IMG/VR virus record: IMGVR_UViG_3300036651_000365
Span: 1-26,807 of that record
Strand: one strand, 5' to 3'
DNA: 26,807 nucleotides
DNA from: a virus
Position numbers and translations under genes: made by a program. A model generated the notes under the pieces. The model was given only the letters and a program-made list of their open reading frames with translations. It did no database searches and was not told the DNA's origin. Numbering within the stretch: the first letter of the stretch is position 1; each line of letters begins with the position of its first letter. Of the stretch, positions 427-26,807 are shown one piece after another.

Positions 427-3400
427 TTACTCCATTTCAGGGAAGACTTCTTTTTTTGCTTCATTAGCGGCTTTTGCTGCCAATGATTTTTTATATTTAT
501 CCTTTTCTAATGGAGTTAAGTTTTTATATAGTTTTGTTTCTCCTGAAGCATTATCCTCACTTGTTGTTACATCCCCGTATTGGTCAAGGGAAATCTCAGT
601 ATCACCTTTAATATCTTTTATTTTCTCTCTTGTAATTCTTGATTTCGCTTCTTCGTATTTAGCCATTTCTTCTTTAGTAGCATTTCTTTTTGTAGAAGTA
701 TTAGGGTCTTTTAGCGTCAATGGTTTACCTGTATCTTTCTCTACTACCCCTGCATCTGTGGCTTTTTTCTCTACTGCTTTATATACGTTTTTAGCTGTTT
801 CTGTCGGGCTGAATATCTTAGTCTGAGGAATACCACCTTCAATTACTTTTAAGTGAGTGTATATTGACTTCATAGCAGCCTCTTTTGTTGTCTTGCCTTT
901 GTCTATTTGGTCTTTATATTCCTGTGCCATGCCTAAACCCATAAATGTAGTCCATAGTGCCGGTATATGTTCAATGATCGGAGCAATGCTATGAGGCAAT
1001 TTCTTATCCCCTACAACAATATCTCCCGGATTAAGTTCACCCGGTTCTAAGTCTTGTTCATCCTTCTTTTTCTTTTGACCCATGTGGGGGAATATTCCAA
1101 AATGAATACCTCCTAAAATAAGAGTCAAAGCATATAGCCCTGCTCCCATACCGCCTTTACGGAAACATCTTGCAATAGTGGCGGCTTGCTTCTCATCCAT
1201 TTGAGATATTTTTTCCTTCAGCGCCGCTTTAAATTCTTCTTTCGTTGTACCTGATGTTATCCCGTCTAATGTCTTTTCTCCTTTTGTATAACCGCCTGCC
1301 GCAAGTTGTTTTTTTATTTCTCTGCTATTCTTAGCCGCCATTGCAAGTGCCTTGAATACACCAAAAGTATATTCTACTAATTGCTCATGTAAAATGTTTA
1401 CCGGTACTCTTGTGATAGCAACATCAGTTTTTAATATGGTCTGCATTGCCTTTGCCATATTCTCTTTTTCAGTCCCCTTTTCGCCTTCAGGTAAATTATT
1501 TACCATTTTATTCCAAAGGTCTGATACTTGGTTAGACTGTTGATATTTACCACGCTCCCAATCAATATATGATTCATGTGCTATTTCAAGTATTCTCTCT
1601 GGATTTGAAATATCTTCCCCTGCTTTAACTGCTCCTTCTAATCTTGCCATAAATCCTGCGGCATAACTAAACCTACCTGAGAATGTTTTTGCTGCACTAT
1701 GAGAGCGTCCGATAAACCCTAATACATAGTTTACTTTATCTAACCAATTACCGTCTTTTATACTTTCTCCCTCTACATGACCAAACTGTTTTTCAATTTC
1801 ATTATGCCTGTACACTAATGCTTTTAACGCATCTTTGATAGATGAACCGCCAATAAACTTATAAATGAATGTTCCCTGAACCTTCATTAGTTTATCATTT
1901 ACATTATCTTTTAGCTTTTTAAGTTGTTTCGGATCTTTATCTGCTCTCTTTGAATAGTTATTAAATGCTGTTGCCGCTTCATTGTATTCTTTATTAGCTG
2001 TTTCGTACAGCCTCTCTATTTTCTTTTCTCCCATCTGCCTGAAGTACGCTTCCACTCCCGCTTTTCTAGAACGCAAACTTGAACTTTCGCCGCCCTTCAA
2101 TGCTACTTTAGAGATGCCGGGGAAAAACTTATCAAATATTTTACCGAATGTAGCCTTTGTAGCTGCTTCTGAAAGAGGACGCATTACAGACATAGATGCA
2201 ACTTTAGCAAGTGTACTTGGCGCACCAATTAGTACAGCAACATAGGCCGACCTTATAAAATCCGCTGCTCTTTCAATCCCTGACTTTTTATTTTCCTCAA
2301 ATTCTTTTTGCTTCTTACGGTATTGCTCTTCTATTATGGATTGCTGTTTTTTAATGCGGATTAATTCAGCGTCTTGTTTTTTTAATTTTACAGGAGGTTT
2401 GTCTTCAAAATTGCCTTCTGCTAACTTCTTGGTGAACTCCTTTATCTTTTTTTCAGCATTTACTTTTTCTCTTGCAAGTTTTATTTTTTGCTCTTGGTCT
2501 GCCGTGAGTTCCGCTTTGGCTATTCTTTTAAGTTCTGCCTGTTGTTCCTTAATTGAATTTTCAATTTTAGCTTTTGTCTCAGGTTTAAAATCTCCTTCTT
2601 TCAAGTATGCCTCAACTAATGATTCTTTAGTCGCATTAGGTAGTATTTTTTTAAGGTCGTTAAACGCTTCTTTGAATAAGTCAGCCTTATCAACTCCCCC
2701 GATATGTGCATTAATGTAATCTCTGATTAAGTTTTTCTCTACTAACTCTTTTGTAATATCTCCAATACTGTTTTTATCAGCGAAGTCTTTAATATCCGCT
2801 AAGTATTCTTCTTTTGATTTCTCCCCTAATGCTGATGCAATATGAGATTCAAAATCTTCTCTGTCTTTATCTGCTTTAAATGCTAATTTGCCATCCTTTA
2901 CCATCTTTTCGATAGCCTCTGCTACCGTTGACCCTTTCTCTACTAATTGAGCAATGCCTTCAACTGCTAAATCCCATGTACCTAATGTAAAGTCAATATT
3001 TGTACTCCCTACGGGTTTCTTTAGTTTACGTATCTTATCAGCAACATCTTTCCCTTTTTGACTTAATGATTTTTCGGTTTTGCTTGGTGTAGAAGATTTG
3101 GCTTTTTTCAGTTTTTCTTCGTACTCTTTTTGAAGTTCTGATATTCTGTTATCAAAATCTTCCTGCATAGAACTAACCTTTGCTTCATGTTCTTTATTAA
3201 GCAAGTCTTTTTCCTGTTCCCATTTATCATTCACCCATTTTTCTTCTTCAGGAGTAAGTTTTTCTCCTCCTTTAGCATTCATTAATTCCATGCGGCGTAT
3301 CTTCAGACCGTTCTCAGGATCATTTCTTATCTCTGATTGGTGCATATTAAATGCCCTACCTGCTTCTCCTTCAGGATTAACGCTTCTTGCTATGTTGAAT

Positions 3401-6400
3401 AGGTCTGATTTAAGTCCATCAAGTTCTGCTAATGCTGCTTGACGCTCTATAACATTATCAGATTCTAATCCTTCGATATTTTTTATTCTTTCCTGCGTCT
3501 CTGCCCTAAACATATTAAGTACCGCTATATCTTCTGATGTAGGGTTGTATAGTATTTTTTCATCAACTTGTTTAGCTAAGAAATCAACCCTTGCTTTTAA
3601 TGCTTCATATAATGATTTCTTAGGGTACATTTTCTGTACATTCTCAGCAGCAGATTGATATGTATTACTCCATGATTTCTTCTCTCTTTTTTCAAAGAGT
3701 TCTTTTGCCCCTTCTATATCTGCTAACTTCTGTTTTCTTATTGAAGTCCACTCTTCATCTCCTGTTGTTGGTTCTGCTTCTTTAGTTGGCGGTTCTTCTC
3801 CTGTTCCGCTGCCACTCGTTTCAGTTCCTTTAATTGGCTCGCTGCTTTCTGTTGTGGACTTGGGAAGATTAGATTTTGTATTTTCTTCCGGGAACATTCG
3901 TTGTGCAATTTCTGTAAGTTCTTTGCCATAGGTTTTTATTGTTGATTCTCTTGACCCTTCATCATGTGCTTGCTCTGCTATGTTTTTTAGATATTTTTGG
4001 AATTGTTCAGGGTCGTTCTTTGCTGCCTCAATTAATGGTGCTGCTGAATACCCTTTTACCTCTCCGCTGTTTACTATTTCTTTTGCTCTTTCAATATCCG
4101 TATCTACTGCACCCTTATCGCTTAATTTATTTTCAATGTGTCTTAATATATCTTTTTCATATAATGGTCGTGCATGATTATTTGGGTCAGTAAGTGCAAC
4201 CCATACAGGTATTGTTTCATTACCATTTTCTTTAGCTGCCAATACTCTATGTTGCCCATCAGTTATTACAACCTTACCCTTATGCTCTGCAAAATTTTCA
4301 ACGCCCTTTACCGGTAATATTTCTCCCGTTTCTTTTTGCCATTTTGCATATTTATCAACGGTTTCTGTTCGCTGCGTTCCTTCAGACTTAGTAATTACAT
4401 CTTTAATTGGCAATTCTTGTAATTGATGAACTTCCCCGTATTTATCTACTGCATAAGTGCCAATAGGATGCTTCTCAAAAGTTGGCGGTGTATTTTCCCT
4501 TTCACGAATAATTTGACTACGCGCTTCTCTGGATTGCTCATCAACCCCATTGGGCAAATTCTCTAATGAAACTGTGTGTGATATTTTAGTTGCATCTTCA
4601 TAATTTACAGGAGTAGCCCGATTAGATACTACTGCACCCTTATTATCAGATGCAGTAGTAGGTTCTCCGGCACTCACTTTATCTGAAAGCCCGTGACGTT
4701 CAATAATGTCATTAGTTAATTGCGTTCTCTGGTTAACTAATTCTGCGGAGTTCCCATCCAATTCATAATCGGCATCAATTTGTGCAAGACGTTTCTTTTC
4801 ATCAGGTGTTAATTCTACCTTTTTTTTAAAATCTTTATCTGCACTTCCATCATGTGTAAACGTGCTTATAAAAACATCATTCCCCTCTCTTGATAACCCT
4901 ACTCGAATGGGAGCGGTTCCTTTTGCATTACCCTGTCCAACTCCATTAGTACTTTCAGGTATTGCTTCTTTACTTGTGCTTTGTCCTTCGGGTTTAGATT
5001 CATCCGATTGTATAGGCTCAGTAGTTGTTTCTCCTTTGCTTTTATTTCTTGCTCGTTCATCTTGTACGTCTTTTATTGCTTCAAGTTCTGCTTCGGTTTG
5101 TAATTTCACTTTATCTTCAATGGGGATAATTTTACCATCTGCATCTTTTTCAGGGATGAGTTGCTTCTCAAGTTTTGCCTTTTGCGTTTCTAACTGCTTG
5201 TCAGTTTGTGGCTCAAGTATCAATGCGTTTTTATGCTTGGCCACCAATTCTGTTTTCTCTAATCCTAATGCTTGTGAAGGCGTTGCTGATTTTGCTTGCT
5301 CCTTTGCGTCAAGTTGAGTTATAGCATTAAGTACAAATTCTCTTTTAGCATCATCCTTTAAATTGTTTATTTGCGGATTTGCTTTAATGACTTTTTGAGC
5401 CTTCTCTATATTTAATTTTATTTGTTCTGCATCTTTTGGAGAAATAGTTCCATTATGTACTCTTTGGTCAAGAGCATTAATAAATGGTTCAGGATTTGTC
5501 CCTGCTTCTATAATTGCAGCAGCGGTAGTTTCTGAAGGACGGGATATTTTCTTTGCTCCACCCAACATTGCACCAAACGCACCGAACTTCAAAGTTTCTA
5601 ACATTGCTTGTTTTGCATAATCTTCAGGTGCTTTTAGTTCTCCGCCTATTGCATCATTCGCCACTTGCCCCGCTGTTGTAAATGCGTTTACTTTTGCGCC
5701 GGAAGTCAACCCCTCTACACCTCCCTTTACTATATTCTTCCCTACCCCGTATAGTTTCTTAAATGTTGTAAAAGTCTTTGAACTTTCTTTTAGTGCAGCC
5801 TCAATTTCACTATCACTTAATTTACTGATTATATCCTTTATCGCTCCTTTCTGAGTAGATGCTAATGCTCTTATAGCATCAGGAGTCCCCGCACTTGCCA
5901 TTGCAAGAGAATTAATTGCGGTATTCCTGAAAGCATAGGCGTAAGGGTTCTCTTCCCCTTTTTCAATAGCGTTAGCAAGCGATTCTTGGTAAGATGTAGC
6001 TGCTGTTGCAGCGAAAGCGGATGCAAATTTACGTGCTGCCCCTGCCGTTGCCCCGCCGCCTGTTGCCGCTTCAAGTGCCATAAATGGAGCAAGATTTGCC
6101 GCTAAGTCCCCAACTCCGTAAAGCATAGATGTAAGCCCGATGTTTGACTTACCACCTTCGATTGGAGTACGTGAAAATTTACCGGGATTCTTATCAAGTA
6201 ATACTTTCACTTGATTTAATTTTTGGGCAAAAGACAAATCTTTATTTGATTTTATCGCATCTATTTGCGCTTTTAAATCTTCGTCTATTTGAGGTTTAAA
6301 TGTTTTTTCTAATTGATTGTCTTGTGTTAGGTATGCAGTATTATCCTGCATCTTTTTCTTACCTAATATTTCTAACTGAGTGATCTGATTGTTTTGATCT

Positions 6401-7791
6401 GACTGAAAAGGTTCTTTAACGAAATTAACTACTCCGTTCCCTGTGTTTTCAATGCTGTTACCAACTGTCATAAACGGATGCCCTAAATCATGTTCCTGAC
6501 CTAATAATTCTTGAGCAAATTCTCTGTTATTAAACTCGGCTAATGTTGGGTATTTTTCATTGAATTTATTATAGGCTTCATTAGCCTTCTGAATATCTTC
6601 ATTTGATTTAATTATTTTATTCCCTATATCTTCCCCTTCAGCCATTTCTTCAGGAGTAATAATACCCGCTTTCATCTTCTGCTCTAACTCATTATATCTT
6701 GGAGTAAGCGTCTGTATATTTTCTTTGGCATGATTAATTGCAAGATTAATCCCCACTTGCTCAAGTTTTTGTTGCTGCTCCTGAAGACCTACTTGTGCAT
6801 CAGGGTTGTCTTTTATTAATGCAGGGTCTATTGCGGCTAAGTCGAATTGCTTTGCTTCATGCGGATGAATATCTTTATAGTAATCAAATGCCGCTGCCTG
6901 ATACTGGTTAAAGTTGGGATTTTTATTTTGTATTGCATCCGGGCTGTTCGCTTGCTGACCATACGTATATTGTCTATCTATTGCAAGATTATGCAACGCT
7001 TTCTCTCTTTCATCATCGTCCGGTATTTTATTTGCTAATTCGACTATCGCCTTATTATCTACTCTTTTATCAGAGTAATTAACATCGGACGCAGAATTAC
7101 GAACAGTATTTACTAAAGGAGTTATATCAAGATTTGGATTCTCTTCTTTCTCTTTTTCAAGAGCGTTAATTACAGGTTGCTGCCATTTTAAAGCCGCAAT
7201 ATACCGTTCTGTATTAGCAGGGCTTTGTTTATATCGTTGTAGTAATTCAGGTTTAGTAAACCCCGGGGTGTTATACCATTCTTCAGGGACATCAGAAATA
7301 ACATTTAAAAACCCTTCATCAAACCCATGTTTATCTTTGAGATTATTTAATATACTTTGTCCGTATGCTTTTGCTTCTTCATCGGGTAAAGTCCTTCCCG
7401 CTACTGTTTTAGTTTTAGCATTAAGTTCATTTACATATTTTACATTGGCAAATGGATCGCTATCATCTGCGGGAGCATTCCCATCTACGGTATTAAATTC
7501 AGGTGGCGTAGCCCCTAAGTCAACTTTCCTTAACTCTTCGTCTGATTGTGATGGTAAAGGGGATGCAGAAACGCCAACATTTTGTGAAGTGTTCGCAGAG
7601 GATTCCCCACCAACTTTTTTTTTTAGCCCCATGTCCATTTCAAAAGCATCTGCTTTATCATGTGGTATTTGATATTCTTCATCCCCTACTTTATAATATA
7701 CTTTTGCAGTAGGGAAATCTTTAATGAACGCATCAGACTTATCCAATGGGATTTCATACTTAACACCGTCAACGTAGTATATTTTTTTCAT
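427..7791 (-). CDS. Giant (2454 aa) polyvalent-type internal virion protein with ParB-like domain
   Basis: This is the largest gene, over a quarter of the window. The N-terminus carries two copies of a 28-residue unit (Y12/Y40, IP 14-15/42-43, DK 17-18/45-46, DAF 20-22/48-50). Long helical, Gln/Glu/Lys-rich stretches follow, then an Ala/Gly-rich hydrophobic zone at about 550-645. Around 1108-1200 lies a segment like the ParB/sulfiredoxin superfamily, with DGQHRVLAA starting at Asp1178. After low-complexity linkers come GRAFNMHQ near 1477, a coiled coil at about 1513-1565, a second hydrophobic segment at about 1840-1870 (VLIGAPSTLAK), and a membrane-like segment at about 2214-2238. The layout resembles large polyvalent proteins carried in virions and delivered with DNA. 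I find no lytic transglycosylase motif and no DxDGD polymerase motif. Its position after the tail-nozzle gene supports an ejected internal protein, comparable in place to T7 gp16. Its start overlaps the preceding stop as TAATG, implying coupled translation. Confidence 0.85.
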   Translation of the reverse strand: MKKIYYVDGVKYEIPLDKSDAFIKDFPTAKVYYKVGDEEYQIPHDKADAFEMDMGLKKKVGGESSANTSQNVGVSASPLPSQSDEELRKVDLGATPPEFNTVDGNAPADDSDPFANVKYVNELNAKTKTVAGRTLPDEEAKAYGQSILNNLKDKHGFDEGFLNVISDVPEEWYNTPGFTKPELLQRYKQSPANTERYIAALKWQQPVINALEKEKEENPNLDITPLVNTVRNSASDVNYSDKRVDNKAIVELANKIPDDDEREKALHNLAIDRQYTYGQQANSPDAIQNKNPNFNQYQAAAFDYYKDIHPHEAKQFDLAAIDPALIKDNPDAQVGLQEQQQKLEQVGINLAINHAKENIQTLTPRYNELEQKMKAGIITPEEMAEGEDIGNKIIKSNEDIQKANEAYNKFNEKYPTLAEFNNREFAQELLGQEHDLGHPFMTVGNSIENTGNGVVNFVKEPFQSDQNNQITQLEILGKKKMQDNTAYLTQDNQLEKTFKPQIDEDLKAQIDAIKSNKDLSFAQKLNQVKVLLDKNPGKFSRTPIEGGKSNIGLTSMLYGVGDLAANLAPFMALEAATGGGATAGAARKFASAFAATAATSYQESLANAIEKGEENPYAYAFRNTAINSLAMASAGTPDAIRALASTQKGAIKDIISKLSDSEIEAALKESSKTFTTFKKLYGVGKNIVKGGVEGLTSGAKVNAFTTAGQVANDAIGGELKAPEDYAKQAMLETLKFGAFGAMLGGAKKISRPSETTAAAIIEAGTNPEPFINALDQRVHNGTISPKDAEQIKLNIEKAQKVIKANPQINNLKDDAKREFVLNAITQLDAKEQAKSATPSQALGLEKTELVAKHKNALILEPQTDKQLETQKAKLEKQLIPEKDADGKIIPIEDKVKLQTEAELEAIKDVQDERARNKSKGETTTEPIQSDESKPEGQSTSKEAIPESTNGVGQGNAKGTAPIRVGLSREGNDVFISTFTHDGSADKDFKKKVELTPDEKKRLAQIDADYELDGNSAELVNQRTQLTNDIIERHGLSDKVSAGEPTTASDNKGAVVSNRATPVNYEDATKISHTVSLENLPNGVDEQSREARSQIIRERENTPPTFEKHPIGTYAVDKYGEVHQLQELPIKDVITKSEGTQRTETVDKYAKWQKETGEILPVKGVENFAEHKGKVVITDGQHRVLAAKENGNETIPVWVALTDPNNHARPLYEKDILRHIENKLSDKGAVDTDIERAKEIVNSGEVKGYSAAPLIEAAKNDPEQFQKYLKNIAEQAHDEGSRESTIKTYGKELTEIAQRMFPEENTKSNLPKSTTESSEPIKGTETSGSGTGEEPPTKEAEPTTGDEEWTSIRKQKLADIEGAKELFEKREKKSWSNTYQSAAENVQKMYPKKSLYEALKARVDFLAKQVDEKILYNPTSEDIAVLNMFRAETQERIKNIEGLESDNVIERQAALAELDGLKSDLFNIARSVNPEGEAGRAFNMHQSEIRNDPENGLKIRRMELMNAKGGEKLTPEEEKWVNDKWEQEKDLLNKEHEAKVSSMQEDFDNRISELQKEYEEKLKKAKSSTPSKTEKSLSQKGKDVADKIRKLKKPVGSTNIDFTLGTWDLAVEGIAQLVEKGSTVAEAIEKMVKDGKLAFKADKDREDFESHIASALGEKSKEEYLADIKDFADKNSIGDITKELVEKNLIRDYINAHIGGVDKADLFKEAFNDLKKILPNATKESLVEAYLKEGDFKPETKAKIENSIKEQQAELKRIAKAELTADQEQKIKLAREKVNAEKKIKEFTKKLAEGNFEDKPPVKLKKQDAELIRIKKQQSIIEEQYRKKQKEFEENKKSGIERAADFIRSAYVAVLIGAPSTLAKVASMSVMRPLSEAATKATFGKIFDKFFPGISKVALKGGESSSLRSRKAGVEAYFRQMGEKKIERLYETANKEYNEAATAFNNYSKRADKDPKQLKKLKDNVNDKLMKVQGTFIYKFIGGSSIKDALKALVYRHNEIEKQFGHVEGESIKDGNWLDKVNYVLGFIGRSHSAAKTFSGRFSYAAGFMARLEGAVKAGEDISNPERILEIAHESYIDWERGKYQQSNQVSDLWNKMVNNLPEGEKGTEKENMAKAMQTILKTDVAITRVPVNILHEQLVEYTFGVFKALAMAAKNSREIKKQLAAGGYTKGEKTLDGITSGTTKEEFKAALKEKISQMDEKQAATIARCFRKGGMGAGLYALTLILGGIHFGIFPHMGQKKKKDEQDLEPGELNPGDIVVGDKKLPHSIAPIIEHIPALWTTFMGLGMAQEYKDQIDKGKTTKEAAMKSIYTHLKVIEGGIPQTKIFSPTETAKNVYKAVEKKATDAGVVEKDTGKPLTLKDPNTSTKRNATKEEMAKYEEAKSRITREKIKDIKGDTEISLDQYGDVTTSEDNASGETKLYKNLTPLEKDKYKKSLAAKAANEAKKEVFPEME

Positions 7792-9272
7792 TAATTGCTT
7801 TTGACTTTATATGACCCCCATTTAGATGCTTTTGACGAACTGCCGCTTTCTGAAGTTGATTTTACCGTTGTCTTAGTTTTAGATTCAGGCTTACTTGTGT
7901 AATGTAAGTTTTCCCCCTTTCTTTCTTTGTCTGCTTGTAGTTGGTAATTGCGTAAATCATTACGAGTTACTACGCCTGTTGGTGTCTCAATACCTTCAAT
8001 TTTACCATTCTTAATTATTGCATTAAAATCAGAAGGTAAGATTATTTTCTGTCCTCTTAAAACTGCATTTACGGTTGATGGCAAATCCTCTTTTTTCATT
8101 CTGATTGTCCCATCTAAAATAGGTTTCCCGTCTTGGTCTATAACAACTCCTTTTGACACTTGCCCTCCTAACCCTTTTGACATTCCCTTTCCATTAACAA
8201 AAACCTGTACCTCTTTATCCATACCTGTATCATCCCAAGATACATCCTGACTAATATCTTGAAAATCTAGCCCTAATGCCTTCCTATAATTCATCCTATC
8301 AATAGCGTACCGCTGTTGCCTTGCAGCCCTCCTATCATTTTCTGCATTCTTATCTTTCTCCAATGCAACTCTATCATAAATCGGGCTACCTTCTTTTGTT
8401 GTTACTACCAATGGAGAAAGTGTATGCTGCATAGCTAAATACTTTGCTGCTCTTTCTGCATCTGTAAGACCTTCGGTTGGCGGAAGTTGTTTGCCTTCCA
8501 TACCTAACCTTTTTACCATTGTAGGGTCTTGCATTAACTGATTATATTTTATTTCAGTTGCTTGCATTTCTTCAGGAGAAATATTACCGAATGTTCTAAC
8601 AAAATCATCTGCCTTTTGGTTGCCTACAAGCCCCGTTCTAATTGCATCAAAATATTCAATGGGGTTGTTAAGCCTTGTTACTTTTGTTACATCCTTGCGT
8701 CTTAATTGTGGATTATCCACAACTTCATCTGTAAGTGCTAAAGGCTTACCGTTTGCTGTGGCAAGAAGTGTATTGAAATCGCTCATATTACCTTTATACC
8801 TTATTGCATCAAACGGGTCTGCATCACCAAGTTTTGTTACCGGTGTATTAAGGATACCTATCATTCCATTATGAGCATCCTTTGTGTAGGAAATAGGTTT
8901 TGTAGCAATCTGTTTTGCTTCTAATTGCTCTTTTTCTTTTTGTGCTTTGCTTTTAGAGATTATATCGTAAACATTTGCCTTTTTTCTAAGAACTTCTAGT
9001 TGTTCTGTAGGTGTAAGGTTGCCTCGTTTAATTTGGTCTTTTGCCGCAGTTTTATAATCAGCATACCTTTGAGTTAGTTCAGGTATGTCGGCATCACGCA
9101 CTCCCGCAACATTCTTAGCGAACTCATTATCTAAGTCCCCTAACGCTTTTCTTTGGTCAGCATCACGTTGTTTTTGCTCGGCATATAGACGTTGGGATAT
9201 TGTATCCGCTGCGGATGTACCTGTAACGTAAATATCTCCCCACGGCCTCGCCGGGTATTGGTGTTCTGCCAT
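7791..9272 (-). CDS. Putative internal virion protein (493 aa), function unknown
   Basis: The product is hydrophilic. Residues about 20-130 are strongly helical and charged (RLYAEQKQRDADQRKALG, then KAQKEKEQLEAKQ), suggesting coiled coil. The middle and C-terminal parts are mixed alpha/beta with a GKGMSKGLGGQVSKG loop. The last 40 residues are a Ser/Lys/Thr-rich, probably disordered tail. No catalytic motif, signal peptide or membrane span is visible. It lies between a small Gly/Ala-rich protein and the giant polyvalent-type protein, which suggests the middle member of a three-protein internal or ejection set (the place of T7 gp15), but sequence alone does not prove this. The start at 9272 is preceded by TATAAAA on the coding strand, in keeping with the other starts here, and the stop overlaps the next start as TAATG. 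The gene is certain; the role is inferred from position. Confidence 0.85.
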   Translation of the reverse strand: MAEHQYPARPWGDIYVTGTSAADTISQRLYAEQKQRDADQRKALGDLDNEFAKNVAGVRDADIPELTQRYADYKTAAKDQIKRGNLTPTEQLEVLRKKANVYDIISKSKAQKEKEQLEAKQIATKPISYTKDAHNGMIGILNTPVTKLGDADPFDAIRYKGNMSDFNTLLATANGKPLALTDEVVDNPQLRRKDVTKVTRLNNPIEYFDAIRTGLVGNQKADDFVRTFGNISPEEMQATEIKYNQLMQDPTMVKRLGMEGKQLPPTEGLTDAERAAKYLAMQHTLSPLVVTTKEGSPIYDRVALEKDKNAENDRRAARQQRYAIDRMNYRKALGLDFQDISQDVSWDDTGMDKEVQVFVNGKGMSKGLGGQVSKGVVIDQDGKPILDGTIRMKKEDLPSTVNAVLRGQKIILPSDFNAIIKNGKIEGIETPTGVVTRNDLRNYQLQADKERKGENLHYTSKPESKTKTTVKSTSESGSSSKASKWGSYKVKSN

Positions 9273-9283
9273 TTTTATAATTA

Positions 9284-9928
9284 TTAAGGATTAAATCCCC
9301 TTGTATTTTCGTAGTTATATTCTTCACTATCAGCATCCCCTACCAATGGCATATTATTCCCCTTTTTCTTTCCTGCACCTCCTGATAAATAAGATCCCGC
9401 TAAAAGACCTAATGAGTTTACTGCATTAGCTTGGTTTTGATGCCCCGCACCTACAAGTCCCATATTATAATCATACTTACGCTGCCACGGCATCCTTACA
9501 TTTGAATTAAATAACCGTGACTTGAAATTACCAACTTGGCTATTTACGCCCATTAGTGTTTTTTCATTATTAATTCTTGCGGCTGCATTTTGAGCATCTA
9601 ATGCTCCTGTCGCTCTGTTTGCATTATCATCAAGTGCTGCAACCAATCCTAATCCGCCACCTCTATCTCCTGCTCTTCTTAAAGACCGAAGTTGTTGTCT
9701 CTGGATGTTTTTCATAGCTAAACTATACTGCTCTGATGGTAATCCTGTGTTTGCACGAAGGGTTGCTAATTGTTGGTTTTGTAGGAGTTCTTCAGGTAAA
9801 GATTCCATTGGGGCAGTAGCATCTAATTGCTTTAATGCTCTCTTCCCTTTATTAATCTGTGACGCTCCTGCAACAAGCCCATAAATGGATGTTAAAGCCC
9901 CGACACCGGCTGAATATGGATCTGGCAT
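9284..9928 (-). CDS. Small Gly/Ala-rich putative internal (ejection) virion protein, 214 aa
   Basis: The N-terminal 30 residues are hydrophobic and small-residue rich (PYSAGVGALTSIYGLVAGAS) and could lie against a membrane. The centre (about 40-150) is helical with many Gln, Asn, Ala and Arg residues (IQRQQLRSLRRAGDRGGGLG). A second Gly/Ala/Leu-rich segment (SLGLLAGSYLSGGAGKKKG) precedes a polar C-terminus. A small protein with amphipathic, glycine-rich ends directly after the tail nozzle gene fits a minor internal or ejection protein such as T7 gp14 (about 200 aa). I recognise no sequence signature that proves it. It starts 13 bases after the 1280-aa gene, with an AAATAAAATG start context and no Shine-Dalgarno, and ends 11 bases before the next start, so it is part of the same operon. 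Alternative: a head-tail accessory protein. Confidence 0.82.
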   Translation of the reverse strand: MPDPYSAGVGALTSIYGLVAGASQINKGKRALKQLDATAPMESLPEELLQNQQLATLRANTGLPSEQYSLAMKNIQRQQLRSLRRAGDRGGGLGLVAALDDNANRATGALDAQNAAARINNEKTLMGVNSQVGNFKSRLFNSNVRMPWQRKYDYNMGLVGAGHQNQANAVNSLGLLAGSYLSGGAGKKKGNNMPLVGDADSEEYNYENTRGFNP

Positions 9929-9941
9929 TTTATTTTATTTT

Positions 9942-12900
9942 TTAAAAGTTACGGGGGCTGTTTTGGCTCATCAAATATACAGCATAAATATAAGCAAAGT
10001 TAGCCCCTTTATATGTTAGTTTTATTTCGCACCAATTACCATTCAAATAGTCCCCTTCTACAAGTGCTAATTGAGCATCTGCACCACTGTTTGCATCTCT
10101 TAATAATGCTGCATACCTGACGCTTTCCTGTATCTCAAAATCTCCTGTTTTTAATTGGCTTATTTGGCGGAGACTGGTCTGCGGATTAATCATACTTGTA
10201 TTAATATCTCCGTTAGTATCTGCTGCCCAAATCTGATTAGATTGATAAGACAACGCATCGAATACTTTCTTTAAAGCAATTTGATTATTAAACACCATAA
10301 TTATTGACGGGTAATACTGTACTCCAAAGAAATTACACCAAGTCGTTTCATTATTTAAGATGTAGGCTGCTCCTGTTTTCCATGCTAAAATCTTATCCTT
10401 TGCCGATGTTACCCACTCAGGTATTAAATCCTTGAAGTCGGTGTAAGCGTTTCTTGGTTCATTGAAGGCAAAACTATATGCAGGTATAGTTATACTGTTA
10501 TAAGTCCCTGTTTGAAGAACTACTACATATTCTTCTTCAAAGTAATCGTAATAACCTATAATCTTTGCTACTGCGCCATTTGGTTGCAAATAAGGTTTGC
10601 TGTATGGTGTTATTAGATTTCTTAAAAGATATTGCCCTTTATACAACTCATTTATAGGCGTAAGCCCGTTACCGGATCTTCTAACTTCATAACCACGAAT
10701 AGGGTCAGTAAAATAATAGCCAGACTTGGCTTTGGCGAAAGACCACTTTTGATTGCCTACCCCATACTCCCCTGCTAAATACTGTATGTTGTTTTTATTT
10801 ATAATAGCATCTGTTGTGGTAAGAACATTTGTGTCTTGATTATCCTGCACTATTTTACCATAAACGCTATACCATCCACAAGCCCTTCTTTGAAGAACAT
10901 TTAGCATTCTATCCTCTGCGGATAGGACTTCAATATCTCCTTTAGAATTATCTACCTCATCAAAATCTAAAAACTTAAATCTGCTTACTTGGTTAATACT
11001 TGTATTTAGAAGGTTTGACAACCCCCATCTTAGTAGAACTGAGTTATACGTTCTTTTAGCATCAGCATCTACTATGAAGTTTCTACCATTTGGTAATGCA
11101 GAACTTTGATAAAAGTCGGAATAGTTTTGATCTATGATACCTATGTTATAAACCTTACTTGATTCTTCTACTGTAAACTTACCGGCAGCCGCCCCTTGAA
11201 AATTTCTAGGTAAAGAGAAATAAGCAAATGTTGTTGGTGCGGGGAATGTAAAATTTGTATCTAATGGTATTACATAATCTACTCCTGCAATTACATTGTT
11301 TATTGTTGCCCCTAGATTTATTGTGCTGAAAGGGTTAACTCCGTCCCAAAATGTCACAGCAAAATTAACAGCCGCAATATTAACTGAGGGTCTGAATAAT
11401 ATTTGACCCGTAATTGTGAAGTTTGGAGATGTCCCTGCATTCAGTTTTCTCATCGCCCAATTTCCGCCTGTAAAAACTTTTGTGGACGAAGTGCTTTGTA
11501 CATTGTATAAGGCTACATCAATCGTGTTTGTTAATAGTGTTAGCCCCATATTCCACCTATCGTTAATTGTTGATGGTGGTGCTGTCTGAACTGAAATATC
11601 CCATGTTGCAGCATTGGCAGTAGATATTTTTCTTTTACGGTAATAGAACTGCCCTTTTATAATATCGAATATTGCACCCTGTGATAAGTTTGGTGTTTGA
11701 TTTTGCGTTTGTCCCTGATGATACCTTGTATTTGTTCCGGGATTCCCAATAGTGTATCTCTCCCCCCATTCGTAATACTGAGTAGCATCGCCACCTGTTA
11801 ATAGTGCGGGAGTATATAACTCAATAAAATAATTAAAGAAAGCTAATGTGCCAAAATCAAATGTCCCCGTTGTTGCAGGTAGCAATATTTTTACATATTG
11901 ACCTGTATGTGTTGTACCGTTGACAGAAGGGTTAAATACTTGGCCTGCTATTTCAAAGTCTTGATTGGTATAAATTGTATTTACTGTACCGCTTATTACT
12001 TTTAAAAATCTTATCCTATCTCCCGGTGCGTAGTCATACGCAAGGTATTTTGAATCGGGGTTTTGAGCAATAAAAGCGTTCAGGTTTTCAATTCCTATGT
12101 AAGCATAAATGGAATCCTTGTATGTGTCCTTACTGATATAGTAAAGAAACTTTTGTTTAGCTAAACTTTTACTCCTACCTATTGTAAAATATTTTGCAGT
12201 AATTGGCGGACGGCTTGTAATTGTCAGACCTACATCCGGTATATTAGGAACCGCTGTTGTCTCAGTATAGTTAACTGTCTGTACAGAAATCCCATTTGTT
12301 GTAACGCTGCCGTTTGTCCTTCCTGCTGCATCGAAATATTGTATCGCATACGCTTCTTTATCATTCCAATTATGAACGTATGAATTAAACGGTATTGGTA
12401 ATGCGAATTGTGTGGTATAAACTCTTTGCAGGCTCTCTCCGTTTTTATTGATTACTAAGTTCGTTGAGTCTGATGATACCACTGTAAATCCTGCTGTTAC
12501 TGCTGCTGCCGATAGACCTGCTATCACCGCTGCCGTTCCTGTTGTAGCAACTGTAAAAGATACTGTTTGGTTTGTGGTTATAATATTAAAAGTATCTCCC
12601 GCTGATGCCACAGCTATGAGTCCTAAAACTATTGCGTGGATATTCCCTGTGCCAAATGCAGAATCCCCGCTTTGTGTTGCTGCGAAAAGATAAGGCAACT
12701 GAGTGTTTCTTTCAGGAACAGATGTAGATGTGGATGTCGCTAGTAATGGTACGGAGTCAAAGTTTTCTGTTATGCCTGCATAAATAGGCACATTCCCATT
12801 AAGCATTTCAAGAGCGTTTGCCTGAAGCGGAACCCAATCCATTAACTGAATGCTATCTTCAGGGTCTATTTCTATGTATGCTTGGTTATTGTAAAAATCA

Positions 12901-13784
12901 AAAGTTGCAAGATCATTGTTCGCTAGCCCCAATGCAGCTTTATCAATAGTTGCCACCAATAAAAAATCACTGAATTGGTTTGGATCAACTACTTGGTTTG
13001 CGTCCGTCTTCCCCGTTACTGCAACTAATATTTCTACTTTTTGTACATCTGCGTCAAGCGTTTCATATACGATTGATATTTTGCAGTTATTGGTAGGGTC
13101 TTTTTCATCAAGATTTATAGGTAATGGAACTTCGCTTTGAATACTCGTTACACTTTTCTCACGACTAAAGTAAACTGCTCTTGTTTTAAACTTGAATAAT
13201 TTCTTTCTGAGTGTATTTACTGTTACCGTGTTGTCATTGCCATAAATAACAAGCGGAGGTCTGTTGGACGGATACTTAATCACTTCCAAAAAAGCACGTT
13301 TCATAACACCATACGTACCCGCAAGTGTTCTTTCTATATTTATTTGGCAGGGTTCTTTTTGAGAATTATTAAAATATAAAGTGTCCCCTTGTTGAGCATC
13401 CCCATAAAGCATTTTTACTGCGAATATTGGCTCATTCAAGGTGAAGTTAAGAATATCCCCGTCCGTATTTGTACCTGAAACTAATAATGCAGAAACGGTA
13501 AGACTATCAAGACTTAATATATATATGCCATGATTGGTATTGGAGTTGTAATTAAAATAAAATACTCGTTGTTTCAGATTATCATAAAAAGATCCAATAC
13601 ACTCGTTATCTCCTGCGGGTAGTGTATTCGTTATAAGAGTTGTTCCCGGTACATTTTCTATTCTTAGATTACCTTCTACACCCCGGTATCTTATATTGCT
13701 TGCACTACGTAATGATGCTGACCCTATATCTTCATTTGGGCTATCAGTATCCATCATTCCATTAAACCTTTTTATTTCTATCAT
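9942..13784 (-). CDS. Large beta-rich tail nozzle/muzzle-like protein (T7 gp12 or crAss muzzle position), 1280 aa
   Basis: The protein is rich in Tyr, Asn, Thr and short beta strands, with few charged helices, as expected of a propeller-like tail tip. The N-terminus (IKRFNGMMDTDSPNEDIG, then NIRYRG) resembles the opening of tail stabilisation or tubular-B proteins of podoviruses, where a short lead is followed by blades such as RVFYFNYNSNTNHGIYIL (about 70-90). About residues 378-455 form an Ala/Val-rich module (GDTFNIITTNQ ... NLVINKNGES) that looks inserted. The C-terminal third contains LSAEDRMLNVLQRRACGWYS and DPIRGYEVRRSGNGL, reminiscent of the conserved part of crAss-like stabilisation/muzzle proteins. 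It follows a 246-aa ring or adaptor and precedes the internal proteins, the same order as T7 gp11-gp12-gp14. The start overlaps the upstream stop as TAATG. Gene certain; nozzle/muzzle role likely but unproven. Confidence 0.85.
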   Translation of the reverse strand: MIEIKRFNGMMDTDSPNEDIGSASLRSASNIRYRGVEGNLRIENVPGTTLITNTLPAGDNECIGSFYDNLKQRVFYFNYNSNTNHGIYILSLDSLTVSALLVSGTNTDGDILNFTLNEPIFAVKMLYGDAQQGDTLYFNNSQKEPCQINIERTLAGTYGVMKRAFLEVIKYPSNRPPLVIYGNDNTVTVNTLRKKLFKFKTRAVYFSREKSVTSIQSEVPLPINLDEKDPTNNCKISIVYETLDADVQKVEILVAVTGKTDANQVVDPNQFSDFLLVATIDKAALGLANNDLATFDFYNNQAYIEIDPEDSIQLMDWVPLQANALEMLNGNVPIYAGITENFDSVPLLATSTSTSVPERNTQLPYLFAATQSGDSAFGTGNIHAIVLGLIAVASAGDTFNIITTNQTVSFTVATTGTAAVIAGLSAAAVTAGFTVVSSDSTNLVINKNGESLQRVYTTQFALPIPFNSYVHNWNDKEAYAIQYFDAAGRTNGSVTTNGISVQTVNYTETTAVPNIPDVGLTITSRPPITAKYFTIGRSKSLAKQKFLYYISKDTYKDSIYAYIGIENLNAFIAQNPDSKYLAYDYAPGDRIRFLKVISGTVNTIYTNQDFEIAGQVFNPSVNGTTHTGQYVKILLPATTGTFDFGTLAFFNYFIELYTPALLTGGDATQYYEWGERYTIGNPGTNTRYHQGQTQNQTPNLSQGAIFDIIKGQFYYRKRKISTANAATWDISVQTAPPSTINDRWNMGLTLLTNTIDVALYNVQSTSSTKVFTGGNWAMRKLNAGTSPNFTITGQILFRPSVNIAAVNFAVTFWDGVNPFSTINLGATINNVIAGVDYVIPLDTNFTFPAPTTFAYFSLPRNFQGAAAGKFTVEESSKVYNIGIIDQNYSDFYQSSALPNGRNFIVDADAKRTYNSVLLRWGLSNLLNTSINQVSRFKFLDFDEVDNSKGDIEVLSAEDRMLNVLQRRACGWYSVYGKIVQDNQDTNVLTTTDAIINKNNIQYLAGEYGVGNQKWSFAKAKSGYYFTDPIRGYEVRRSGNGLTPINELYKGQYLLRNLITPYSKPYLQPNGAVAKIIGYYDYFEEEYVVVLQTGTYNSITIPAYSFAFNEPRNAYTDFKDLIPEWVTSAKDKILAWKTGAAYILNNETTWCNFFGVQYYPSIIMVFNNQIALKKVFDALSYQSNQIWAADTNGDINTSMINPQTSLRQISQLKTGDFEIQESVRYAALLRDANSGADAQLALVEGDYLNGNWCEIKLTYKGANFAYIYAVYLMSQNSPRNF

Positions 13785-22562: not shown

Positions 22563-22917
22563 TTGATATGCTTTCTGGTGTGATTCTTTCTTTACGCTTA
22601 ATTGTATCCTCTAAATCTTCTTTTTGCGTTATTCTTAATTCTGTTCTCAATATTTTCAAGTCTGTTATTGACCCTTTTAGTCCTTCTCCCAATGCTTTTA
22701 CTCTATCGTAAAACTTATCATCTTTAGGATTTTTCTTAATCTCCTCTTCAAGTTTGAAGTCCTTTACTATATCTACCTGCTGACGTACCCAAAATTTAAG
22801 AGCATAGTACCCCTCTCTCTCTAAATCCTCATCTTCATAAACTGCAAGTTTTTGATTTAGTACTTCAATTTGTCTTTTGAGATTGCTATTATCTCTTTTA
22901 AGTTCTTCCTCTGTCAT
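22528..22917 (-). CDS. Small coiled-coil protein in the small-terminase position, 129 aa
   Basis: The first 35 residues predict a coiled coil (EEELKRDNSNLKRQIEVLNQ). A central charged part follows (GYYALKFWVRQQVDIVKDF), then more helix (LKGSITDLKILRTELRITQK) and a short C-terminal segment containing RITPESISNVLGN. It overlaps the terminase gene by 35 bases and the GIY-YIG stop by ATGA. Small terminase subunits are short, helical and encoded just before the large subunit, so this is a reasonable candidate. However, I see no clear DNA-binding helix-turn-helix, so the call is positional. Alternative: another packaging or assembly helper. That the gene is real is supported by overlap on both sides in a gapless operon. 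Confidence 0.7.
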   Translation of the reverse strand: MTEEELKRDNSNLKRQIEVLNQKLAVYEDEDLEREGYYALKFWVRQQVDIVKDFKLEEEIKKNPKDDKFYDRVKALGEGLKGSITDLKILRTELRITQKEDLEDTIKRKERITPESISNVLGNTAGQPD

Positions 22918-23849
22918 AGATACTTATAAGGTAATTTGATTTTATGTCTATCCTTCAATATTTCTCTAAATGTATTCTCACAATATTTAGTAGATGCAGC
23001 CGCTTCTTTTACAGTTTTATAAATATGATTAGTTTCAGTATTTATAACCCTCTTTGACATATTATGCCCATTTTTAAGAAGTTGTATCTTTGTTTTTTCA
23101 GAGGCCGCCTTTCTTAGTTCAGGGTTATCTCGGTATAATTTACGCATTCTTTCAGAATGTTCTTTTGATAACTCGGGGTTGTCTATAAACCGCTGTTTCA
23201 TTTTCTTGCTATGTGCATCAGGATTTTCTTTCTTGTATTTAATCCATCCTGACAAACACCTTTCTTTCAATTCAGGATCATTAGCAAATGCTAATTTTTG
23301 CCTTTTTGATGCTGCTAATTTTGCTTCCGGGTTTCTTTTATAATAAGCCTTTCTAACCTCGCTCCTTTCTACTCTTAATTCAGGATTATCAATAAACCTA
23401 TTTTTATGAAGCTGGCTCATGCTTTCTCTTACCTCTGTAGTAAATCCTGCTTTTGTGCGTATTGAGGTATTAAGCCTTTGTTCTGGATTGCTGAAACGTA
23501 TTTTTTGAGTGATACTTATTTTCTCTTTAAACTGTTGTGTAGTCAATGCGGGAATATCATCATACCCCGGCAATAACAAGTTTAACCCGTTACTGTGTTC
23601 TACGGAGGATAGATATAAATCTCCGAAAACTCTCTCCCACATTAGTCGTTCTACTTCCTCGCAGTATATCAAAACTTTAAAAGTGTGTGCTTCCCAACCA
23701 TATTTTTTTATTGAGTTATATATTGCTGACTGCCCTGAACAACTACAATTTTTATAGCGATTAACTCTCTTATCTAGCCTTTTACTGCTACCGACATACC
23801 TGCCATTAGATGGACTTGTTATTAAATATACTCCGCACCTTTTATCCAT
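22914..23849 (-). CDS. GIY-YIG homing endonuclease with NPE repeats and NUMOD1-like C-terminus, 311 aa
   Basis: Selfish DNA endonuclease. The GIY-YIG nuclease is residues about 1-95: GVY at 6-8, GRYVG at 16-20, Arg28, Glu72 and Asn90, matching the key residues of I-TevI-type nucleases (two Tyr, Arg, Glu, Asn). Residues about 119-245 hold an array of units marked NPE or DPE at 121, 155, 173, 191, 209 (NPD), 224 and 242, mostly 18 residues apart, basic and helical. The C-terminus (about 267-301, VINTETNHIYKTVKEAAAST) looks like a NUMOD1 helix-turn-helix DNA-binding module. It starts 3 bases after the portal stop and overlaps the next gene as ATGA, so it was inserted or evolved without a gap. 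Family is sure; target site unknown. Confidence 0.93.
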   Translation of the reverse strand: MDKRCGVYLITSPSNGRYVGSSKRLDKRVNRYKNCSCSGQSAIYNSIKKYGWEAHTFKVLIYCEEVERLMWERVFGDLYLSSVEHSNGLNLLLPGYDDIPALTTQQFKEKISITQKIRFSNPEQRLNTSIRTKAGFTTEVRESMSQLHKNRFIDNPELRVERSEVRKAYYKRNPEAKLAASKRQKLAFANDPELKERCLSGWIKYKKENPDAHSKKMKQRFIDNPELSKEHSERMRKLYRDNPELRKAASEKTKIQLLKNGHNMSKRVINTETNHIYKTVKEAAASTKYCENTFREILKDRHKIKLPYKYL

Positions 23850-23852
23850 AAA

Positions 23853-26333
23853 TTATTGCATTTGCATTTCGGGTTGTTGTTGCATTTCTTGTTGTTCTCC
23901 CATTGGTGATTCTTGTGGCTGCCCTGCTTGTTGTTCTGCTAATTCTTCTTGTTGTTCTTGTGCTACGGCGGCTTGATCCATTTGTTTGTTCTCTGCCGCT
24001 AACGGGATGGTAATGTTGGGTACAAGTTGTTGTATAGCCGGCATGAATGCAGCGATAAGTTTACCTGATTCGTCTTTTGCTGCTACTGCTAAGTACCCTT
24101 GTAAAAGAATTTCTTCTTTCTTTTTTGTAGATTCAAATTCAGCCATTTCTTTTTTAGCATCCATTTCGGCGGCTGCTAATTTAGCATCATTTTCTGCTTT
24201 TTGTTGAAGACTGGTATTTTGCGTTTCGGCATTTTCTCTTGTTCTTCTTGAAGCTTCTTCGTTCGCCTTACGCCTATTCTCTTCGTATGTTTTTGTTAGA
24301 TACCAACGTGCTAATTTTGGATCATCAATTTCCCGAATCATCATTGCATCTTTCAATGTTAATGATGGCTGTCCCATTTCATCAGGCACTTGACTGTAAC
24401 GTTGAATGTCTGCCTCTAATCTTTCTCTTTCATAGTCTGTAGATTTCATTTTAACCTGCACTTTAAAGCGGGTGTTTATCATGTCATCTTTGGATTCAGG
24501 TTCTTCTTTTACTATATCGTTCCAATGAAGTAAACATAATTTGTAGCAGGTCTGTTCCCAAAGAGTATTATTAGCGTTTAGAACATAGTCTGAAACGTTG
24601 TAGGATGCGTTATTTTGCTGTTCTTGAAGTACACCTGAAGTTCTATCGCCTACATCACTACCGTCACGATATTGAGGCACACCAATGAGTTGTCGTATCT
24701 CTTGAACTATGCTTGCCAATACGTTTGTGATTTCAATTATTTTACTAACCGTATCATCGTGTGCTGTATTGGATATTGCCGGGGCTTCTTTTGATAGCGG
24801 GTCAAGTCCTTTACTACTCCAAACTTCTGTACCCGTCTGATTGAATATTCTAAGTACCTCTTCCCATCCTATTGAGTTACCATTACCTAAGTCAATGTTA
24901 CGTGCGCTTTCAACATCAATTCTAATCCCTGCGGGACGTATTTGAGATATTAACTGCTTGCGCTTTAATTTGAGCATTGTGTACTCACGGAGCGGTTCCA
25001 TTATCCTTTCAAATAAAGATGGCACATAATCCCCGTCATTATTAGGGATGCTTATAGTCCATGAGGACATAGGCTTTGATACATTTGTAAACTCACTTAC
25101 AATTAAATCAGGCTCTCCCCAATAAAGCATTTTATCTCCGTAGGGAGCATATACGCCTCTCATCCACGGATTGCTTTGTTTCTTAATTATTTTTACGTTG
25201 TCGGGCTTTGGTTGTTCTATTATTTTGCCTTCTTTGTTTTTTGTTTGATAAGGCACATTTTTTTTAAGAGATATATTTTCACGCCCGAATGAATCTGTCT
25301 TTGCTACATAATAGGTTTCTTCCCCACATAGTATTTCACAATCTAAAACAAGTATTGAGCAATCATCATAAGGTCTAACTGTATTTTGCATCAGCATACT
25401 GTATGATTGCTGCCATTGGTAGTTAAACGTGCCTATGTTTTGTTTTGTTGCTGAGTTCTTTGCTAATTCAAAAATATCTAACTCTGTAAGACCATCAGGG
25501 CGGTCATCTGTTTTACCGAATTTTGCTCTTAATTCTCTTACTTTAAGATTGTAAAACTCCCCTACCATTGTAAGTTCACAATCCCCTGTATCATTCATAA
25601 AGAAGTTGTAAATCATATTTGTCGGGACTCCTTTACGAATACTATACTTTTTAGGCGCAATCCTTTCAATCTTTGTAGCCCCAAGATTAACTACGGTATG
25701 GTCATAAAGCGTTTTTCTATTAAGTACATTTTCAAACAATATACTATCCAATGTAAGCCCCAACATTTCTTCAAACCGTATTTCCTTTGGCAATCTATCC
25801 TCCAATTCAAAATACACTCTTGCCATTAATTCATCATCAGGAACGTATGCCCCTGTAGGTTCTAATTGAACTCCTGCTTGTTGCTGTAAATCTTGAATTG
25901 TTTCAATATCCCTCATACGAAATAACGCTTCAAGCATCCTGTCTTCTTTCTCTGAGAGAGAACCGTCATCTATTGCGTTTACACAAGGGTAAAGTTTATT
26001 TTTAGCCATTGATTCTACCAACGTACCTACGAACTGTGCCGCTATACGCTGCTGTGTCATATCCATCGGAACGTGAGCCTTATTAGCATCACTTACACTC
26101 ATGAAATCCAAGAACTGTTCCATTGGTTGCGACCCTTTGCTCCATAGGAGTAACTGTTGCATACGCTGACTTCTGCCTAAAAAGAAGTTCAAATTAGTTG
26201 CATTACTCGTCTGCTGAGAGTAAAATGCTTTCACGATTGCCTTCCCTTTTTCTTTATTAGCCCTATCTTCAGGAGACAAGAAGACCTTTTCCATTAACGG
26301 ATCGGTAAATGTGGGTAGTGTTGGTTCTGGCAT
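23853..26333 (-). CDS. Portal protein, 826 aa
   Basis: Forms the dodecameric channel at one capsid vertex through which DNA is packaged and ejected, and binds the terminase. The length fits the large portals of podoviruses and crAss-like phages. The body is mixed alpha/beta with a clip/stem-like middle (LREYTMLKLKRKQLISQIRP) and the portal-typical run GDRTSGVLQEQQNNASYNVS before helices near LWEQTCYKLCLLH. A long charged coiled coil (NRRKANEEASRRTRENAETQ onward) covers about 685-745, and the last 50 residues are Gln/Glu/Met-rich (the barrel or a disordered tail). The order of portal, small gene, terminase, scaffold and capsid supports the call. The start region overlaps the HNH gene by 40 bases; AATTATAAATG is the start context. 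Confidence 0.85.
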   Translation of the reverse strand: MPEPTLPTFTDPLMEKVFLSPEDRANKEKGKAIVKAFYSQQTSNATNLNFFLGRSQRMQQLLLWSKGSQPMEQFLDFMSVSDANKAHVPMDMTQQRIAAQFVGTLVESMAKNKLYPCVNAIDDGSLSEKEDRMLEALFRMRDIETIQDLQQQAGVQLEPTGAYVPDDELMARVYFELEDRLPKEIRFEEMLGLTLDSILFENVLNRKTLYDHTVVNLGATKIERIAPKKYSIRKGVPTNMIYNFFMNDTGDCELTMVGEFYNLKVRELRAKFGKTDDRPDGLTELDIFELAKNSATKQNIGTFNYQWQQSYSMLMQNTVRPYDDCSILVLDCEILCGEETYYVAKTDSFGRENISLKKNVPYQTKNKEGKIIEQPKPDNVKIIKKQSNPWMRGVYAPYGDKMLYWGEPDLIVSEFTNVSKPMSSWTISIPNNDGDYVPSLFERIMEPLREYTMLKLKRKQLISQIRPAGIRIDVESARNIDLGNGNSIGWEEVLRIFNQTGTEVWSSKGLDPLSKEAPAISNTAHDDTVSKIIEITNVLASIVQEIRQLIGVPQYRDGSDVGDRTSGVLQEQQNNASYNVSDYVLNANNTLWEQTCYKLCLLHWNDIVKEEPESKDDMINTRFKVQVKMKSTDYERERLEADIQRYSQVPDEMGQPSLTLKDAMMIREIDDPKLARWYLTKTYEENRRKANEEASRRTRENAETQNTSLQQKAENDAKLAAAEMDAKKEMAEFESTKKKEEILLQGYLAVAAKDESGKLIAAFMPAIQQLVPNITIPLAAENKQMDQAAVAQEQQEELAEQQAGQPQESPMGEQQEMQQQPEMQMQ

Positions 26334-26807
26334 TTATAATTTATTTTTCCGGGTTTTGTATTGAACTTTTTTAGAGGTTTTTCTATTGATTCTTTTATAT
26401 CCCAACCTAATTCTACATATCTTGCCCACACTACACTATATTTTACGTTGTATTTATCTGCCGCTTGTTTTAGTGTTAATCTTTCTCCTTTATAATTCAC
26501 AACGATATTATCTCTTCTGTTATTTTGATTTTCTTTTGAAGTCATTACCTCGCAAGTTTCAGGAGAATATATGTTGCCCCCGCTTTTATCCTTATCAATA
26601 TTAAGTCCTTTTCTCCATCCGTTTGCTATTGCCCAATCATGGTAACTTTTGAAGTTTTCTCTCCATTCCTTACAAACTGTAACCCCTTTCCCTCCATAAT
26701 TTAAATAATTTTCGCTGTTTTTATTATAACACCTCTCCTTCATTGTACTCCATACTTTATACAAAGGATGATTTTTTGAAAAGCCATGCGTTTTATTACA
26801 AACTATC
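26294..26807 (-). CDS. HNH-type homing endonuclease, 5' end cut by the window's right edge
   Basis: The frame is open to base 26806 and reads IVCNKTHGFSKNHPLYKVW before KERCYN, so the true start lies beyond the window. An internal TTG at 26764 is not a good start because the conserved family lead (HG-S ... LY-W) precedes it. The typical family blocks are present: YNKNSENYLNYGGKGVTVC, then KEWRENF, WAIANGW, NIDKDKSGGNIYSPETCEV and SKENQNNRRDN. These are the blocks of freestanding phage HNH endonucleases. The C-terminal segment (ERLTLKQAADKYNVKYSVVW, then ELGWDIKESIEKP) is the usual DNA-binding helix-turn-helix. The last 13 codons overlap the portal gene in another frame. It acts on DNA, probably promoting its own spread between related phages. 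Family sure; specificity unknown. Confidence 0.88.
   Translation of the reverse strand, partial: IVCNKTHGFSKNHPLYKVWSTMKERCYNKNSENYLNYGGKGVTVCKEWRENFKSYHDWAIANGWRKGLNIDKDKSGGNIYSPETCEVMTSKENQNNRRDNIVVNYKGERLTLKQAADKYNVKYSVVWARYVELGWDIKESIEKPLKKFNTKPGKINYKCQNQHYPHLPIR

Follow-up and report, generated by a model that had tools for sequence, protein, structure and literature searches.

The window analysed here, a stretch of 26,807 nucleotides of viral DNA, encodes a 2454-residue protein that probably serves as an ejection (cargo) protein and brings an NTP-binding effector domain into the host. We infer its packaging, its injection and its nucleotide binding. The gene closes a three-gene cassette that follows the tail-tip gene, the position typical of podoviral ejection proteins. 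The candidate effector is an internal segment that almost certainly has the fold of the ParB/sulfiredoxin (Srx) superfamily, as judged from profile matches and a predicted structure.

The giant gene and the probable ejection cassette

All of the larger genes of the window lie on the minus strand. Their order is portal (PHROG, 4e-28), GIY-YIG endonuclease, terminase large subunit (2e-64), a scaffold-sized gene, a major-capsid-sized gene (1.6e-19), small head/tail genes, muzzle, a 214-aa gene, a 493-aa gene and the giant. The last four are as follows.

9942-13784, minus strand: muzzle (tail-tip) protein, 1280 aa (PF25729 crAss_MUZ_C, 6.6e-10; tblastn to phi38:1 gp97, 7e-11)
9284-9928, minus strand: 214-aa gene, putative small ejection/pore-type protein (profile matches in relatives)
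7791-9272, minus strand: 493-aa gene, putative second ejection-type protein (its profile places it beside the giant in about 25 relatives; position of phi18:3 gp121)
427-7791, minus strand: giant gene, 2454 aa, probable ejection/cargo (polyvalent) protein (intact ORF and synteny)

On the minus strand, the giant reading frame opens with an ATG at 7791 and its stop codon ends at 427; it has 2454 codons and no internal stop, and the plus strand across 427-7791 is closed by many stops. The earlier note had described the gene at this length, which is correct, and had given no strand. It had also placed the gene after the tail genes, and this gene order bears it out. The stop of the 493-aa gene and the start of the giant overlap by one base (TAATG). 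Two endonuclease genes flank the portal gene: the GIY-YIG homing endonuclease on one side (22914-23849; PF01541, 1.5e-6) and on the other a probable HNH-type frame (26294-26806), which was assigned by reading the sequence and matches Pfam only weakly, to HTH_psq.

Matches to the muzzle are gp97 of Cellulophaga phage phi38:1 and gp060 of Tenacibaculum phage Gundel, and those to the terminase come from phages of Cellulophaga, from Flavobacterium phage elemo and from Maribacter phage Panino. By these matches the phage is classed as a Bacteroidota podovirus related to the Pervagoviridae/Pachyviridae, and to the Crassvirales through its muzzle. No close relative was found among the phage records. 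Eighty relatives were gathered from IMG/VR via the terminase. The order muzzle, 214-aa gene, ~490-aa gene, giant is kept in about 25 of these relatives, and wherever their regions were examined a ~200-aa and then a ~490-aa gene precede the giant. About ten relatives (L094-L098, L103-L107, L113) have two large ORFs in place of a single giant, separated by a ~490-bp gap that may hold a small gene.

The 214-aa protein is homologous to small proteins of five cultured phages, its profile finding phi38:1 gp99 (1e-21), elemo gp20 (9e-21), a Panino protein (4e-19), Gundel gp072 (3e-4) and phi18:3 gp120 (1e-3). The giant itself is syntenic with phi18:3 gp123, phi38:1 gp101, Gundel gp074 and crAss001 gp47. 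In phi18:3, gp120, gp121 and gp123 (small, medium and giant) are annotated with 'experimental MS/MS proteomics analysis'. In crAss001, muzzle gp44 is followed by gp45, gp46 and gp47, and gp45-47 are cargo proteins detected by MS (PMC10172136). By analogy, on this synteny and the small-protein homology, the giant is very likely packaged in the virion. The argument runs through synteny because sequence homology between the giant and the giants of cultured phages is undetectable. Of the earlier description of a virion-type polyvalent giant, the polyvalent part stands, and the virion location is a reading from synteny with the phi18:3 proteins and the crAss001 cargo. Entry into the host with the DNA would follow from the established behavior of ejection/cargo proteins.

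The crAss001 cassette is the closest in layout, with three genes directly after the muzzle, the last of them a giant of about 2.3-2.5 kaa, and with a muzzle domain homologous to that of the window (PMC10172136). In contrast, the three window proteins have no detected homology to gp45-47. Weak E-values to crAss001 gp49/gp50 found no support from hhalign, with the small and medium proteins scoring near shuffled controls. While gp47 is annotated as RNA polymerase-related, the window giant has no DxDxD, and no similarity to the solved crass RNA polymerase was found in the PDB; it is thus not a Crassvirales RNA polymerase of the gp47/gp50 type. The ejection proteins gp14/gp15/gp16 of T7 and gp7/gp20/gp16 of P22 also come as small, medium and large proteins with enzymatic domain swaps among relatives (PMC8954989). 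They differ in that the window giant is nearly twice the size of T7 gp16 and carries a ParB-fold domain instead of a transglycosylase.

Taken alone, the giant had no homologue by tblastn in 50,697 phage records and none among the solved structures of the PDB. Pfam matches of the whole giant to DUF7326 and MbeD_MobD fell under the cut-off and were judged to be chance, as were matches to CCDC50_N, spermine synthase and rpsB. It had been called membrane-prone, which is weakly borne out: there are two marginal hydrophobic stretches (residues 1851-1869 and 2216-2237) and a module at 480-820 that is 24% Ala plus Gly and abundant in small-xxx-small pairs.

A divergent ParB/sulfiredoxin domain

4147-4509, minus strand: ParB/sulfiredoxin-superfamily domain, residues 1095-1215, core about 1120-1205 (PHROG, PDB profile, Foldseek)
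4246-4260, minus strand: DGQHR, P-motif (GxxR) of the ParB fold, residues 1178-1182 (from the sequence; GxxR as nucleotide-contact motif from PMC12704722)

The longer motif DGQHRVLAA, noticed earlier at residues 1178-1186, does occur there, at plus coordinates 4260 down to about 4234. The exact pentamer DGQHR has a chance expectation of 1.8e-4 in a protein of this composition, and the pattern [DG]GxHR-h-x-x-A arose in 2 of 20,000 shuffles. The ParB/Srx signature proposed from this motif is now supported by profile matches over the whole surrounding domain and by its predicted fold. The isolated segment 1095-1215 matches ParB-like families in PHROGs (E 4e-5 and 3e-4) and, in NCBIfam, DGQHR (0.015) and parB_part (0.033), both weak and below curated cut-offs; no curated cut-off was reached in any family model. 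The scores set the domain apart from canonical ParB (TIGR00180, 13.9 bits against a cut-off of 58.45) and from the DGQHR/DndB family (TIGR03187 and PF14072; DGQHR 15.1 bits against 58.85, DndB 11.1 against 29.1).

Two syntenic giants of IMG/VR relatives, L103 and L111, have related domains with DGHNR and DGHTR, respectively, of which the L103 domain matches PF02195 at 5.6e-5. Identity between these two and the window domain is low, at 21-26%, and D-G-x-x-R is invariant across all three. A profile of these two domains without the window finds Noc in the PDB (E 0.0039), and the three-sequence profile finds SbnI (E 0.0036) and Noc (E 0.0062). A phmmer search of the PDB with the domain by itself returned chance matches only. 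Among phage records the domain had only very weak matches (halovirus HCTV-5 gp114, cyanophage Dfl-JY45), and pattern scans of IMG/VR and GTDB returned no homologue of giant or domain.

Structure prediction against ParB/Srx folds, the check that the earlier note had proposed, likewise pointed to this fold. The AF2 model from the three-sequence alignment was of moderate quality (pLDDT 57, pTM 0.51), against pLDDT 35 for a single-sequence model. Its elements (E27-34, H49-61, E79-82, H86-94, E99-105) follow the expected order of beta strand, Box I helix and loop, strand, GxxR loop-helix and strand. All 50 of the 50 PDB matches listed by Foldseek are ParB, Noc, Srx, SerK, SbnI, KorB or PadC, with TM about 0.42-0.52 and none passing E 0.001. 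A Foldseek search of a viral library agrees.

The nucleotide-contact motif is intact as G1179-Q-H-R1182, and the Box I helix and loop are also present. Box III is absent or unrecognizable, as is usual in orphan ParB-fold proteins (PMC12704722). In the binding assays of that study, ParB-fold proteins of phages, bacteria and archaea bound ATP, CTP or GTP, with R-to-A changes in GxxR as negative controls; for some proteins binding was undetectable in vitro, and the choice of nucleotide was not predictable from sequence. The same study describes phage fusions in which a divergent ParB-CTPase fold is joined to other domains, Box III is absent or divergent and GxxR is kept. The window domain resembles these fusions, and differs in sitting inside an ejection-type giant and below detection by PF02195 (no match at E<=10). 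A PF02195-based survey would therefore probably have missed it.

Modules of the giant and a variable, putative effector zone

Iterated profiles across the syntenic giants divide the protein into modules.

7588-7791, minus strand: N-terminal two-copy repeat tag, residues 1-68, then KKKVGG (self-alignment beats 40 of 40 shuffles)
5353-6294, minus strand: conserved Ala/Gly-rich helical module N3, residues 500-813 (iterated profile)
4522-5334, minus strand: segment V, residues 820-1090 (common to L009, partly to L090)
3862-4146, minus strand: segment Lk, residues 1216-1310 (common to L006)
2257-2964, minus strand: charged helical segment, residues 1610-1845 (profile comparison)
1342-2241, minus strand: C-terminal helical module, residues 1851-2150 (common to L091, L092, L107)

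About 20 syntenic giants contain module N3, at E values from 1e-21 to 1e-105. The module was not found in the giants of cultured phages, where hhalign scores lay near shuffled controls. What follows N3 changes from phage to phage. The related ParB domains of L103 and L111 lie after N3. In L009, segment V is followed by an HEVGH motif in place of the ParB domain. In L006, Lk directly follows N3, so about 400 residues, including the ParB domain, are missing. A DdrB-type ParB domain (PF18763, 1.4e-28) occurs in L095 (G029:23988-24374), the syntenic giant of another crass-related phage. A histidine phosphatase domain occupies residues 904-1051 of the L092 giant (5.5e-18), and HExxH occurs in L003, L009, L099 and L103, assigned by motif alone. 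Among cultured phages, the Gundel giant has a weak GNAT match and the elemo giant has DUF3293 and HEIFH. At the level of sequence, this comparison shows that the region between the conserved helical modules is a lineage-variable effector zone.

At least four syntenic giants out of 31 carry a ParB-superfamily domain (window, L095, L103 and L111), a lower bound because PF02195 misses the window domain. Polyvalent proteins combine disparate domains, are encoded beside virion genes and commonly have zincin-type peptidases as companions (PMC5512222). The giant has the same makeup, with disparate domains in one protein beside virion genes, swapped among relatives. The histidine phosphatase of L092 is an unusual cargo domain for a giant virion-type protein. 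In L088 and L089 the counterpart of window residues 1610-1845 is duplicated in tandem.

A two-copy tandem repeat, whose self-alignment score was matched in no more than 1 of 40 shuffles, opens 26 of 31 syntenic giants; this survey took in the window, L006, L009, L088-L113 and phi38:1 gp101. The repeat unit varies by phage (YVDGVKYEIP.., LPKGFKLD, KWDKY, DPLGIL, ELDEFGIP, YNGKIY..), and KKK often follows the pair. The paired repeat is perhaps a virion-docking tag and may deserve a study of its own.

A model for the giant and its alternatives

We propose that a crassvirus-related Bacteroidota podovirus encodes three ejection (cargo) proteins, that the giant is the largest of them, and that it would be made late and packed in the capsid. 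It would then be extruded via the tail in partly unfolded form, together with the 214-aa and 493-aa proteins and either before or alongside the DNA, and would refold in the host, as proposed for the crAss001 cargo and T7 gp16. The conserved helical modules may aid envelope crossing. The ParB/Srx-fold domain, with its intact GxxR, would bind and perhaps hydrolyze an NTP in the newly infected cell, acting at entry as an NTP-dependent enzyme or switch. The earlier suggestion that it could modify DNA or counter defense finds no direct support here, since the intact P-motif does not discriminate between a nuclease, an NTPase and a kinase.

There are several other possible roles for the domain. First, it could be an NTP-regulated DNase or nickase delivered at infection, directed at host DNA, a rival element or the phage's own DNA. 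Such a role has been proposed for DdrB-like ParB domains, and several proteins of the ParB/Srx fold are reported to have nuclease activity (PMC5512222). The polyvalent proteins of that study, including phage P1 DdrB, resemble the window giant in being large, multidomain and encoded beside virion genes, with a ParB/Srx domain inside, and their zincin-type motifs recur here in the giant's relatives; the window giant itself has no metallopeptidase motif. Other syntenic giants have ParB-superfamily domains, one of them DdrB-type. However, the window domain gives no PF18763 match at E<=1 and so falls outside the DdrB family, a separate nuclease motif was not found, and a nuclease carried in the capsid with its own genome would have to be kept in check. 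We regard a nuclease as a possibility, and an unlikely one.

Second, the domain could use ATP to act on small molecules, as the free serine kinases SerK and SbnI do, or could be a nucleotide-depleting enzyme. SbnI (DGVHR) is the best PDB profile match, and the fold matches include SerK and Srx; all three have the ParB/Srx fold, a P-motif of the DGxHR or GGCHR type and an ATP-binding pocket, features also assigned to the window domain. Against a kinase, Glu20 of SbnI, which we take to be the catalytic Glu, is not clearly kept: in the HMMER alignment its column holds a Ser beside a Glu in the window and an Arg in L103 and L111. The domain is not a sulfiredoxin itself, as the catalytic Cys is missing, with Gln in its place (DGQHR versus GGCHR). 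Unlike these enzymes, the domain sits inside a giant phage protein. An enzyme of this kind is quite unlikely.

Third, the domain could be a DNA-handling or structural module, for example a CTP-type clamp holding the entering DNA. ParB and Noc, which are CTP-dependent DNA clamps, stand at the top of the fold list, and T7 gp16-C binds DNA, with a DNA-clamping role proposed (PMC8954989). However, no HTH, dimerization domain or ParA-binding motif was seen, and some relatives lack the domain entirely, so ejection does not need it. We give a clamp little chance. Finally, a decayed passenger kept as a spacer would fit the weak scores to every known family and the state of Box III, but it is very improbable given that the P-motif and Box I are intact and that similar domains recur in other syntenic giants.

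The ejection protein with an NTP-binding effector is a further example of a known theme, the phage polyvalent or ejection giant with a ParB-fold domain, and not a new type of system. Its added interest lies in a ParB-fold branch that standard models miss, and in the variable effector zone that comparison with relatives reveals. It is tempting to speculate that crass-related podoviruses of Bacteroidota use their giants as delivery chassis, in which a slot behind the conserved helical module takes exchangeable effectors, with each giant docked to its own virion by a phage-specific paired N-terminal tag. The slot would here hold an undescribed ParB/Srx branch, an entry-stage NTP enzyme acting against host defense or metabolism. 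We hold this wider proposal only tentatively. If it is true, an alignment of syntenic giants would reveal phage effector domains that act early from their position only, even where family models fail, as they do for this ParB domain. The ParB fold would then be one used repeatedly at genome entry, with its nucleotide and target testable by single-domain biochemistry.
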